From NCBI GenBank assembly GCA_020631215.1, contig JAHDHS010000013.1, positions 1-51,169 on the forward strand: a stretch of DNA of 51,169 nt. Reading direction: 5' to 3'. Below, piece by piece: positions 4,232 to 47,138 of the stretch (positions within the stretch are counted from its first letter, which is position 1; each line of letters opens with the position of its first letter). The translations under genes were made by a program, and so were the position numbers. Below the pieces are notes generated by a model. That model saw only the letters and a program-made list of their open reading frames with translations. It was not told the origin of the DNA and ran no database searches. Source of the DNA: Hellea sp. GTDB taxonomy: Bacteria; Pseudomonadota; Alphaproteobacteria; Caulobacterales; Maricaulaceae.

Positions 4232-5362
4232 CTAATTGAAATCGTCCGGCGCGGACGCTGCGGCTAATACCGCCGAGGGGATTTCAGGCGCATCTAATCC
4301 AATCCAGAAAACGCGCCACTCTTCCATACGCTGCATACCGTCACAATTCTTCATATACCAGTCATTAAACGGATTATTCAGACGCGAACGCCAGAAAAAT
4401 GCGGGGATATCTTTGCGCATCGCCTCCCATAGGTCCCGGGCGATGCCTTCACCGCGTGCCTCCTGCAAAACCCAGAATTTGGACAGATATGGTAAGCCCG
4501 CCAATTGTATAAACAACGCGCCCCCGCGATAGTCAGTTTCAACAAATCCTTTGTGAATATCCTGTTTGAAAAAATCGGGTTTAATCGTTTTCCCAAAGGC
4601 TTGATTGATGGACTCCATCAGGCGTTTTTTGCCCAAGCGTCGATAGGATGACACGCGTTTGATCTTTATCTGGCGACGAACCAGCGTGCCGGAACCTTTG
4701 GTGGTGAACAGCTCCGCCAGCAGGTTCAGCGGCGAGGCAATAATATATGAGCGGCGCTCTTTGGCCTCTTTATCCAGTTCCAGCACTGTATTGAGAAAGT
4801 TGATCTGCCCTGCGCTGAAAATCTGTTTTTCCATTAAGTCCGGCAAATCTTCCAACCTTAGATTTCGTTGCCTGACGCCATTATCCGACAGCCCGCCGGA
4901 CGGTTGCAGGAATATGATCTTATTGGGTTTCAAGTCCTTGGTCAGGCGCGCGAGGTTCATCTTGCCACGACGCTCTGTCATTTCCAAAATCGGCATTCGA
5001 AGCTGCCGTGTTGTTTTTTTGATTTCCGGGACTAACCCATAGCTGGCGGTGTTAAGCTTATTGGTTTTTACGCCGCTCTGCTCAAGCTCTCTCGCCAGTC
5101 GCTGGCATTGAAATTTTACTGACGTGCGGTCTTCATCAAGCGCTCCGATCAATAAAACCGGCATGAGTTGCAGGTTTGATAAGATGCGTAAATTTCCAGA
5201 TAGGGCTTCGAGCAAAGGATCCTTCAGGCAGCGCGGATCAATGACCAGCAAGGCAAAACGCTCCGGCTCCTGCCCGGCGAACAGGTCTGCATAAAATTTC
5301 GCTTCGTGATTAGCGCCAACAGCGGAGAGACTGCTTAAGACGGTTTGGCGGACATCACTCAT
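4232..5362 (-). CDS. N-acetylglutamate synthase, vertebrate/Xanthomonas type, with degenerate kinase-like domain
   Basis: Predicted to transfer acetyl from acetyl-CoA to glutamate, the first step of arginine synthesis. The C-terminal ~140 residues are the NAT (DUF619) domain: an acetyl-CoA loop QEARGEGIARDLW (300-312) and the distinctive FFWRSR...NP.NDWY..NCDG (322-342) and W..FWIGL endings. The segment ELFTTKGSGTLVRR (217-230) is the usual joint between the amino-acid-kinase-like and NAT domains of bifunctional NAGS/kinases such as that of Maricaulis. The N-terminal domain is short and lacks the glycine-rich kinase loops (LLIGALDEDR stands where a VHGGGP-like loop is expected), so kinase activity is unlikely. 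At 376 residues it is shorter than bifunctional relatives (about 440). Its ATG overlaps the ArgE stop (ATGA). Confidence 0.82.
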   Translation of the reverse strand: MSDVRQTVLSSLSAVGANHEAKFYADLFAGQEPERFALLVIDPRCLKDPLLEALSGNLRILSNLQLMPVLLIGALDEDRTSVKFQCQRLARELEQSGVKTNKLNTASYGLVPEIKKTTRQLRMPILEMTERRGKMNLARLTKDLKPNKIIFLQPSGGLSDNGVRQRNLRLEDLPDLMEKQIFSAGQINFLNTVLELDKEAKERRSYIIASPLNLLAELFTTKGSGTLVRRQIKIKRVSSYRRLGKKRLMESINQAFGKTIKPDFFKQDIHKGFVETDYRGGALFIQLAGLPYLSKFWVLQEARGEGIARDLWEAMRKDIPAFFWRSRLNNPFNDWYMKNCDGMQRMEEWRVFWIGLDAPEIPSAVLAAASAPDDFN

Positions 5363-6450
5363 GACAATCCTCCGGCCAAAGCCTTGGCGTAGTAGTCCGC
5401 CGCTGTTATCAATTGCCCACTCTCAACATATTCATTGGGCCTGTGGGCCTGATCCAGATTGCCCGGCCCGTAAACCACGGCATTCACCCCTGCCCCGGAC
5501 AGCATGGCGGCTTCTGTCCAATAGGGCAGATCAACGATTTCCGTTCCGGCAAAAAATCTTTCAAAAGGCTTTATGTCTTTGCTCGCGAAAGGCGGAAAGG
5601 CCACAATCGTGTCTAGCTTTGCTTCATAAGGTTTTCCCAGATCATAAAGATCGGTTTCGCGGGCTTTGACATTATCTCCTGGCGGCGGACGCATAGACAC
5701 CCAAAGGCTGGCCGAGGTCGGGATAACATTATAAGCGCCGTCACTTTTTATATCGCCGATATTCGTGCAAAGGCCTTTAAATGGCGCCGTGCCGAAATCC
5801 AAATTAGCCGCGCCATAGGCTCCGATATCGGCTGCGAGTTGCGCGGCCTTCAAAAGAGGTTTTTCGATATTATCCGCCAAAGAACTATGCCCCCCCGGCC
5901 CGGAGAAATCAGCCCGTATCGCCAACATGCCCCGGTGCGCCCGCCCAACGCGGCAGGATGTGGGCTCGCAAATTATGGCCGTTTTCACATCATCAACATG
6001 GCCACGGCGGATCAGCTCCGGCATGACTTCACTGCCATGTTCCTCATCGCCGGACAGTAAAAGCGCGACATTCTTGGGCGTAACTTTTTCCAGCGCTGCC
6101 AGAATACAAGCCGCAGCCCCTTTGATATCACTGGTGCCCAGCCCGATCCATTTATCACCGTCCTGACGAAGCTTAAGCGGATCATCGGTCCACCCCTCCC
6201 CGCTGGGCACCGTATCAATGTGGACATTTAGCAGCACATCCGGCCGGCCCCATATGGCCAAAACAAAAGCGCTGTCTGATTTACCGCGAGAACGGGGAAC
6301 CGTTTCCATGACCAAATGGTCCGGCGAATGCGCCGCGAGCGCGTCCTTTAAATAACTGACACAGGCGATTTCATCGCCCGTTCCATTGCGCGTATCAAAA
6401 GCGATTAATGGCTCCAGCCATTTGATGATGTCTTTTAACTCCAGCCTGAT
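5359..6450 (-). CDS. ArgE-type M20 deacetylase (acetylornithine or acetylcitrulline deacetylase), non-standard start codon
   Basis: A zinc deacetylase of the M20 family that removes acetyl from an arginine-pathway intermediate. Visible motifs are NVHIDTVPSG with the metal-ligand His/Asp, the GLGTSDIKGAA ligand Asp, LSGDEEHGS with the catalytic Glu pair, CEPTSCRVG, and the dimerisation-domain GPGGHSS. The C-terminal YWTEAAMLS...VVYGPGNLDQAH resembles the Xanthomonas acetylcitrulline deacetylase ArgE', so either substrate is possible. The conserved N-terminus (LIAFDTRNGTGDEI) lies upstream of the first TTG at 6315. Between the in-frame TAG at 6456-6454 and that region there is no ATG, GTG or TTG. 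AAGGAG at 6463-6458 is seven bases before ATC at 6450-6448, and a CTG at 6444 is also possible. From ATC the protein is 363 residues, the family's usual length. Confidence 0.85.
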   Translation of the reverse strand: MRLELKDIIKWLEPLIAFDTRNGTGDEIACVSYLKDALAAHSPDHLVMETVPRSRGKSDSAFVLAIWGRPDVLLNVHIDTVPSGEGWTDDPLKLRQDGDKWIGLGTSDIKGAAACILAALEKVTPKNVALLLSGDEEHGSEVMPELIRRGHVDDVKTAIICEPTSCRVGRAHRGMLAIRADFSGPGGHSSLADNIEKPLLKAAQLAADIGAYGAANLDFGTAPFKGLCTNIGDIKSDGAYNVIPTSASLWVSMRPPPGDNVKARETDLYDLGKPYEAKLDTIVAFPPFASKDIKPFERFFAGTEIVDLPYWTEAAMLSGAGVNAVVYGPGNLDQAHRPNEYVESGQLITAADYYAKALAGGLS

Positions 6451-44495: not shown

Positions 44496-45014
44496 TCACT
44501 TAAATTCCAATTTCCCGTTATATTTTAATGCCTGAAAAAACTTAATCCTCGCCCTTTGAAGCCGGGTTACATTACGCATGTTCTCTTCACAGGGGCAGGC
44601 AAGTGATCGTTGGCTGGCTGGTGAGGGGACGGCGTTTGCCGGTGTAGCTTTGGGGGTAATGATCCCAAGGGCGGCTGGTTCAGCGCGAGCTGATTGGGCT
44701 AGTGCATTTTGCGTATTAGCAAGCTCAAAAAATGGGCTTTCTCCGCCCAATTTTTGAGGCTCTTCTATTTTAAACGCAAATTGCACGAACTGCCCAGTTC
44801 GGCCGCTGATAGAAGACGTCGCCGCAGGGCTTGGCCCCGCGTAAATTGTTAGTTTTTTTGGTGCTCCATCGCGGATACCAACCCTGCGTACCGCCCCATT
44901 TATGAGGTTTACGCTAAAAAGGCTGAGCGCAAGATCGCCAGTAGGAGAAAAAGCTCGCCTTACCCATCCGTGCCATCGCCGAATAAGCTCGGCGCGGCGG
45001 GCTTGACTGGGGCG
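44496..45014 (-). other. Unexplained 173-codon stop-free frame behind ruvB (orphan gene, fragment or chance)
   Basis: The 526-base gap from 44434 to 44959 has no recognised gene. On the minus strand one frame stays open from 45014, inside the 3' end of ruvB in another frame, through to TAA at 44498-44496. The translation looks protein-like (for example NLINGAVRRVGIRDGAPKK, GRTGQFVQFAFKIEEPQKL, SQRSLACPCEENMRNV). The only standard start is GTG at 44786, which would give 96 residues and discard the 5' part. It could be a decayed gene fragment, a real small gene, or chance. No family recognised, and no ribosome-binding site convinces. I see no RNA gene or insertion sequence in the gap. Confidence 0.3.
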
Positions 45015-46000
45015 TTAAGGCCCAGATGGGCATAGGCGCGGGCAGTGGCGACACGGCCTCTAGGGGTGCGCTGTAAGAAGCCTTGCTGAATAAGGTAAGG
45101 CTCTATGACGTCTTCAAGGGCGTCGCGGGCCTCAGAAAGCGCAGCAGCCAGCGTGTCGGCCCCGACCGGGCCACCGCCAAACATTTCACACAGCGCATGG
45201 AGGTAGCGCATATCTTGTTTATCCAACCCAATATCATCGACACCCAGTCGCTTAAGCGCGGCATCAGCCGCCAGCGTATCAACCGTCTTATGTCCGGCAT
45301 CTTCGGAAAGATCGCGTACGCGACGCAGAAGGCGGCCAGCAACGCGCGGCGTGCCGCGCGCCCTGCCCGCAATTTCGCGCGCACCCTCAGCCGTTATATC
45401 AAGCCCAAGCTTGGCCGCAGCGCGAGAGACGATGCTGGTCAGGTCCTCCGTGCTGTAGAATTCCAGCCTGACGGGAATGCCAAATCTGTCTCTCAAAGGC
45501 GTCGCCAGCAGCCCTGCCCGAGTCGTCGCGCCGATAAGGGTGAAAGGCGCCAAGTCAATCTTGATAGAGCGAGCGGCAGGCCCTTCGCCAATAATCAAAT
45601 CCAGTTCGAAATCCTCCATGGCTGGATAGAGAATTTCTTCCACAACCGGGTTAAGCCGGTGTATCTCATCAATAAAAAGGACGTCTCTCGGCTCCAAATT
45701 GGTCAACAAAGCCGCCAAATCGCCCGCTTTGGAAATGACCGGGCCGGAAGTAGAGCGGAAGTTGACGCCAAGTTCCCGCGCCACAATTTGAGACAAGGTC
45801 GTCTTGCCCAATCCGGGCGGGCCGGACAGCAAGAGATGATCCAGCGGTTCGCCGCGACGCCGTGCGGCGTCTACATAGACTTTCAGATTATCGAGGGCTC
45901 CCGCCTGCCCGACAAATTCAGCAAAGGACAAAGGGCGCAAAGCGCGGTCACGCCCGTCACCGACTTGGCTATCCCCGCTTATGATCCGCTCTTCGTCTAT
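44960..46000 (-). CDS. ruvB: Holliday junction branch migration ATPase RuvB, apparent ATA start
   Basis: AAA+ motor that drives branch migration with RuvA. Walker [10 protein letters not shown], Walker [12 protein letters not shown], sensor 1 LIGATTRAG, Arg finger RDRFG and the C-terminal winged-helix [18 protein letters not shown] are present. The usual N-terminus is visible as DEERIISGD...DRALRPLSF, but there is no ATG, GTG or TTG before it: an in-frame TAA is directly followed by ATA at 46000-45998. AAGGAG lies eight bases upstream, and ATA overlaps the ruvA TAG as ATAG. From ATA the protein is 346 residues, the standard length. The first TTG (45940) would delete 20 conserved residues. Confidence 0.94.
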
Positions 46001-46635
46001 TTACTCAGCTCCTTCAGCGCCACTTTGACCAGCTCATCCAAGGGCGGATCGTCGGCAAATGTGTTATAGGCCTGCGCCACAGCCCGCAAGGCATCGGACT
46101 GGCCAATGCCGAGATTCGCAAGTGCGGATACAGCGTCATTGCGCAGAGCCATATCGGAGAGCCCTTCATTGCGCTCAGCCTCATTGGGTGTGCCGCCGGA
46201 GGGCTTCGTGAAAACAGGCTGGAAACCGCGGCCCGCAGGGGCGGGTTTGCCCGAAAGCTCTGTAGCGATGCGCCCGGCCAGTTTCGGGCCTACGCCGCTC
46301 GCCCGCGCAAAGGCGGTTTTATCTTCGAGCGACGCCGCTGACAAAATCTCTCCGGGCGACATGATATCGAGGATAGCAAGCGCCGCTTTGGGCCCTACTC
46401 CCTGCACAGATTGCAGACCGACGAACCAGGCTCGCTCTTCTTCGGTATGAAAACCGAAAAGCGTAATCGCTGTTTCACGCACATGCGTTTCCACATGCAG
46501 GCGAATAGGTTGCCCTTCCGCCATATTGCCAAGCGTACGAGAGCCGCATTGCAAAAGATACCCAACGCCGCCGCAATCGACAATTGCTTCCCCTGTCCCG
46601 GCCATCAGGCAGACACCATTTATCATACCGATCAT
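45997..46635 (-). CDS. ruvA: Holliday junction binding protein RuvA
   Basis: Tetrameric junction-binding subunit of RuvAB. 212 residues from ATG 46635, which overlaps the ruvC stop (ATGA). OB-fold N-terminus [39 protein letters not shown], and HhH motifs [16 protein letters not shown] and [16 protein letters not shown], then a flexible linker and the C-terminal RuvB-binding domain ([11 protein letters not shown]). Confidence 0.95.
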
Positions 46636-47138
46636 GAGACCCGCCTGTATAGACTGCCGGCTGCTTTGACGCGGTGAGCGTGACAAATGGCAATGGCAAG
46701 CGCATCAGAGGCATCACCCGCTTTCACGCCGCACCCCGGCATGAGCACATTCATCATATGGGCCACTTGAGCCTTGTCCGCCGTACCCGTCCCAACGACG
46801 GATTTCTTGACTGATCTCGGAGAATATTCACCAATGCCTAGCCCAGTCGTGCTGGCGGCTAAAAGACAGGCGGCCCGAGCGTGACCCAATTTAATGGCGC
46901 TTGCAGCATTATTCTTCATAAATGCCTCTTCAATGGCAGCCTCGACTGGGTCATGCAGGCGAATAATATCGGTAATCGTTTCGAACAATTCACGCAGGCG
47001 CGCATGAAGCGCCGCTTTCGGATTGGGCCGGATGACACCATGGGCGACATGGCGCAATTTCGTCCCTTCCGACTCTACAACGCCCCACCCGCAAGCCACA
47101 AGTGACGGGTCGAGCCCAATGATCCTGATCGATTCCAT
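46632..47138 (-). CDS. ruvC: Holliday junction resolvase RuvC
   Basis: Nuclease that cuts Holliday junctions. 168 residues with acidic catalytic residues in RIIGLDPSL (D10), IEEAFM and DASDALAIAICH. First gene of ruvC-ruvA-ruvB. Its start at 47138 is divergent from nothing; the Nramp gene upstream runs in the same direction and ends 63 bases before it. Confidence 0.96.
   Translation of the reverse strand: MESIRIIGLDPSLVACGWGVVESEGTKLRHVAHGVIRPNPKAALHARLRELFETITDIIRLHDPVEAAIEEAFMKNNAASAIKLGHARAACLLAASTTGLGIGEYSPRSVKKSVVGTGTADKAQVAHMMNVLMPGCGVKAGDASDALAIAICHAHRVKAAGSLYRRVS

Follow-up and report, generated by a model that had tools for sequence, protein, structure and literature searches.

In S. 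aureus, infC, ccpN and citZ start from AUA codons that stand behind strong Shine-Dalgarno motifs, and AUA there yields about 10% of what AUG does, a figure that reaches up to 30% when ccpN is expressed in rich medium (PMC13009471). A second kind of described system is the termination-reinitiation gene pair, in which two genes overlap such that stop and start share bases and the Shine-Dalgarno motif lies inside the upstream gene (PMC6728339, PMC12548453 and PMC2268962), the overlaps named in PMC6728339 being AUGA and UGAUG.

We evaluated a gene junction that resembles both systems in a Hellea sp. draft genome, within a window that comprises the whole 51,169-nucleotide stretch of DNA analysed. 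Its minus strand carries ruvC, ruvA and ruvB consecutively, with the following features around the ruvA-ruvB junction.

46632..47138, minus strand: the neighbour upstream of ruvA, which we take to be ruvC from gene order
45997..46635, minus strand: ruvA, read from ATG 46635; its TIGR00084 match begins at residue 18 of a longer frame (TTG 46686)
46009..46014, minus strand: AAGGAG, Shine-Dalgarno-like, within the coding end of ruvA (K-E codons), 8 nt upstream of the ATA
46001..46003, minus strand: TAA in the ruvB frame, closing that frame immediately 5' of the ATA
45998..46000, minus strand: ATA, proposed ruvB start codon, in a column that is GTG or ATG in most same-genus genomes
45997..45999, minus strand: TAG, the ruvA stop, overlapping the ATA as ATAG (46000-45997) at a conserved ruvA end
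45938..45940, minus strand: TTG, first canonical in-frame codon of ruvB, a rival start at residue 21
44960..46000, minus strand: ruvB reading frame from the ATA onwards, 346 residues and the stop, with family matches

The ruvB product is RuvB, the Holliday junction motor, as it scores above the curated family cut-offs (NCBIfam PRK00080, RuvB, 492 bits against 282; TIGR00635, 435 bits against 299) and contains the RuvB_N, AAA_lid_4 and RuvB_C domains, while the ruvA product matches TIGR00084 (RuvA) at 156 bits against a cut-off of 85. A search of the genome for a second ruvB returned one full match and two weak ones (31-32% identity over about 100 residues). The earlier note had described 346 residues as exactly the family length, which is too loose a statement given that the open frames of relatives vary and that solved RuvB chains range from 312 to 355 residues.

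At the junction, the 3' end of ruvA reads AAG GAG CTG AGT AAA TAG and the ruvB frame reads TAA ATA GAC GAA GAG CGG ATC ATA AGC, the ATA and the ruvA TAG having two bases in common. No ATG, GTG or TTG lies between the in-frame TAA and the conserved RuvB N-terminus, and this TAA rules out a start further upstream in frame; the coordinates thus bear out the earlier description of a TAA followed by an ATA within ATAG, preceded by AAGGAG. Like the S. aureus AUA genes, ruvB combines AUA with a strong Shine-Dalgarno motif, whereas those starts were experimentally shown, belong to another phylum and, in what is accessible of that study, come with no description of the stop-start overlap that is a feature of ruvB (PMC13009471). 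Like the termination-reinitiation pairs, ruvA and ruvB have both a stop-start overlap and a motif upstream of it inside the first gene; the overlap here is AUAG, and CUGA in four relatives, instead of the forms named in PMC6728339. The ruvC/ruvA junction is an ordinary ATGA overlap (46635-46632, minus strand), giving an operon with two successive stop-start overlaps. Among the literature matches listed, none concerned a ruvB/ruvA start-codon overlap by title, by which we do not claim its absence from print.

To place this start among its homologues, we read ruvB junctions at 125 family and order loci (window included, a few family matches at contig ends being left out) and at 80 more distant named loci, whose best identity to the ruvB product was 74% among the matches listed. 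Fifteen same-genus genomes had a readable ruvB N-terminus (two others, G008 and G011, gave no match at 1e-50), and all 15 start ruvB with ATG or GTG. The column of the ATA holds GTG in 11 and ATG in 2 of them; of the remaining two, L014 has its ATG one codon further downstream and L017 two codons further upstream. With 13 of 15 genomes agreeing on the column, the start place is evidently right and AUA would be derived: read from these alignments, the position is fixed by homologues, the codon drifts, and AUA represents the derived state of this genome, an origin within this lineage being the best explanation. An ordinary start in the same column of relatives had been listed in the earlier note as speaking against an AUA start; such starts are indeed present, yet they rather confirm the position, and only the codon is derived here.

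Canonical codons are absent from the ruvB N-terminal columns at 5 of the 125 family and order loci (window included) and at 1 of the 80 distant ones. Four loci of genus g21 (L116, L122, L123 and L202, from genomes G074, G068, G072 and G077) seem to start ruvB at a CTG that overlaps the ruvA stop as CTGA, L123 also carrying a TTG five codons inside, beyond the CTG. The ruvB of a Tepidamorphaceae bacterium MAG (L040, JANQPO010000017.1) has no canonical codon in the stretch from its preceding stop, which lies 38 codons ahead of the anchor, to the anchor itself, with a CTG in the start region. ATA is the sole start candidate at 1 of all 205 ruvB loci, the window's own, and hence neither a conservation of the kind found at infC (see below) nor a conserved regulatory use of ATA is visible among these loci. 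The suggestion in the earlier note that the codon could reduce or regulate RuvB relative to RuvA accordingly finds no support so far.

The GTG or ATG in this column of 13 of the 15 same-genus genomes, together with the draft state of the assembly (81 contigs), speaks for an explanation by sequencing or assembly error, in which the cell has an ordinary start and the ATA exists only in the assembly. We consider this very unlikely, as the bases in question belong to two genes at once. A one-base change from ATA to ATG (G at 45998) would turn the ruvA TAG into TGG and, by reading, carry RuvA 8 residues past its K-E-L motif. That lies outside the range of the 107 alignable RuvA ends (of 118 family loci given), all of which fall 2-5 residues after this motif or its equivalent, and exactly 2 residues after it in 98, as in the window. 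Because one and the same base makes the AUA and, where it is conserved, the ruvA stop, a single wrong base is an unlikely cause; GTG or TTG in place of ATA would take two substitutions, again with loss of the ruvA stop. Three bases missing from the sequence would be compatible with the junction (cf. L114, where TAG and GTG overlap by one base) but represent an uncommon kind of error, while a three-base deletion may have been the evolutionary route by which the ordinary ruvB start was lost.

The main rival to the AUA start is a RuvB shortened by 20 residues and initiated at TTG 45940 after loss of the ancestral start. As the first canonical codon in the frame, this TTG would retain the whole RuvB_N match (residues 21-179), and some solved RuvB chains from other bacteria align only from query residues 18 to 21 onwards (residue 3 of Thermus 1hqc to query residue 18, residue 2 of 7pbl to query residue 21). 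This TTG is, however, preceded by no Shine-Dalgarno motif and encodes the Leu of a conserved A-L-R-P, which is a plain Leu codon in many relatives. We therefore regard a TTG start as unlikely, and it would leave a kept N-terminus unexplained. That N-terminus was assessed over 19 codons in a set of 37 coding sequences, using the non-synonymous rate relative to the rest of each gene, and the window's ruvB had a ratio of 2.18 (median 2.24), ranking 15 of 37. Against L111 and L114, the same codons gave synonymous values of 0.51 and 0.59 and non-synonymous values of 0.10 and 0.10. By this measure the N-terminal codons are no more relaxed than those of relatives that have ordinary starts, and under similar constraint. 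In most of the nearest pairs, however, this stretch varies more than the remainder of ruvB (e.g., 0.37 vs 0.084 against L004), which makes the test not a strong one, and with nearest relatives about 90% identical to the ruvB product at the protein level, a very recent start loss would be invisible and still look conserved. Predicted RNA folding around the AUA was slightly weaker than in shuffled sequences (z 0.68), and the TTG region folded at -23.1 kcal/mol, the same as its own shuffles (z -0.10).

A programmed frameshift out of ruvA, producing a RuvA-RuvB fusion, would likewise dispense with a ruvB start codon, and two observations speak for it: the two frames overlap with no ordinary start in that of ruvB, and the genome does contain one programmed-frameshift gene, prfB. 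However, ruvA and ruvB do not keep one frame relative to each other across the 125 loci (55 with a one-base-back overlap, 29 and 32 in the other two frames, 9 with no ruvA end found), and a slippery heptamer of the usual kind is by reading absent at AGTAAATAG, leaving this explanation scarcely credible. As for a special tRNA that would read AUA, the genome's 24 tRNA loci, analysed with ARAGORN, included two Met(CAU) tRNAs and none with a UAU anticodon; no isoleucine tRNA was found among them either, which indicates an incomplete assembly and makes this a weak test.

We screened for other starts of the AUH type (AUA, AUC, AUU) in 1.66 of 2.55 Mb, i.e., 65% of the genome with the window included, using 1,099 simple gene models. 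The strict screen required a Shine-Dalgarno motif of at least 5 bases, then ATA, ATT, ATC or CTG, then coding sequence with no canonical codon for 8 codons, and is blind to AUH starts that have a canonical codon soon after. It returned 3 genes: ruvB, an open reading frame at 5359-6450 of the window, and a third, weak case, in which a motif also precedes the gene's own ATG. Allowing any codon behind a motif of at least 6 bases gave 28 non-canonical positions, of which 3 were AUH and most are background before ordinary starts. A looser screen revealed no excess of AUH codons behind Shine-Dalgarno motifs (ATC 3, ATA 2, ATT 0, whereas each of six other codons occurred 4 times), and with no AUH preference nothing suggests that AUH starts are numerous in this genome. 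Two textbook cases among the 28 positions, infC (ATC) and prfB, served as positive controls. The prfB gene (release factor 2, L298 12209-13264) has CTTTGAC after AGGAGG and was picked up by the screen as a gene lacking a start; CTTTGAC is the usual frameshift site.

The infC gene, which encodes IF3 and is known for autoregulation through it, has ATC in its start column in this genome (L291 11172, contig C49) and in all 14 readable same-genus genomes, this one included. Nine genomes from other families of the order have ATA (6), ATT (2) or ATC (1), bringing the AUH count to 23 of 23 readable genomes, with 1 of 24 loci (L363) unreadable at that end. AUA at infC thus looks ordinary across the alignments from this order, and the earlier statement that AUA starts are extremely rare in bacteria is too strong here, with ATA at infC in 6 of 9 readable other-family genomes. 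Like infC, ruvB has an AUH codon behind a strong Shine-Dalgarno motif, whereas AUH is conserved at infC and the ruvB ATA occurs in one genome and within a stop-start overlap.

The remaining window gene from the strict screen lies away from the ruv operon.

5359..6450, minus strand: acetylornithine-deacetylase-like M20 gene, with a proposed ATC start at 6450-6448 and AAGGAG at 6463-6458

Its product belongs to the M20 peptidases; the models closest to it are those of acetylornithine deacetylase, whose cut-offs it does not reach (199.6 bits with PRK08737, against a cut-off of 345), and a TAG stands just upstream of the ATC, with no canonical codon for 45 codons. Comparing 39 homologous loci, with canonical codons sought from 40 codons upstream to 6 past the anchor, we found AUH in the start place of 20: 10 with no canonical codon in reach (L308 and L324 among them, which look identical there) and 10 with a TTG or GTG in reach as well. 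The other 19 have ATG or GTG in the start place or near it. Within the genus AUH stands at 13 of 18 loci, and it recurs in genus g19 and at one locus of g21; being common to several species, it gives better support for AUH starts than ruvB does, and the alignments make this gene the more interesting candidate lead. None of the literature matches listed for this gene contained the term acetylornithine deacetylase. Genome G001 has two deacetylase-like copies (L307 and L323), both with AUH in the start place. The start regions of L324 (G120, labelled g26) and L308 (G012, g1) are identical as far as shown, with equal match scores (562.9 bits), suggesting that either G120 or G012 may contain a mis-binned contig.

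Returning to ruvB, we consider it likely that the gene is translated from the AUA at 46000-45998, standing where relatives have GUG or AUG, by means of the Shine-Dalgarno motif and coupling to ruvA termination. The layout, the start column in homologues, the conservation of the ruvA end, a coding signal still present at the N-terminus, and AUH at infC and another gene all point this way, whereas the occurrence of ATA at ruvB in one genome and the looser screen's failure to reveal a general AUH excess point against it. Mechanistically, either a ribosome that has terminated at the UAG of ruvA or a 30S subunit recruited through AAGGAG would reach the AUA, on which initiator fMet-tRNA would be placed such that fMet becomes the first residue of a predicted N-terminus of Met-Asp-Glu-Glu-Arg-Ile-Ile-Ser. 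The strong Shine-Dalgarno motif and the stop-start overlap would offset the poor codon, and a lower RuvB yield would be the probable price, an expectation drawn from the S. aureus AUA starts. An ATA start, as the earlier note proposed for ruvB, accordingly remains the most likely reading; judged from sequence comparison, it is probably real and working.

For gene calling, tools that take ATG, GTG and TTG starts alone shorten such genes, as the default list of open reading frames did for ruvB. At the level of the lineage, one could imagine that a few AUH-start genes are kept besides infC (the deacetylase-like gene in many species, ruvB here) and that their output depends on the stringency of IF3 against these codons, in which case IF3 level would tune an amino-acid pathway and the supply of RuvB relative to RuvA in this species; we hold this as a doubtful idea. 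The deacetylase-like gene, with AUH at most of its genus loci, would extend conserved AUH starts to a gene other than infC. Lastly, the loss of the ordinary ruvB start inside a stop-start overlap, together with CUG in some relatives, represents a natural test of coupling and a strong Shine-Dalgarno motif relaxing the choice of start codon.
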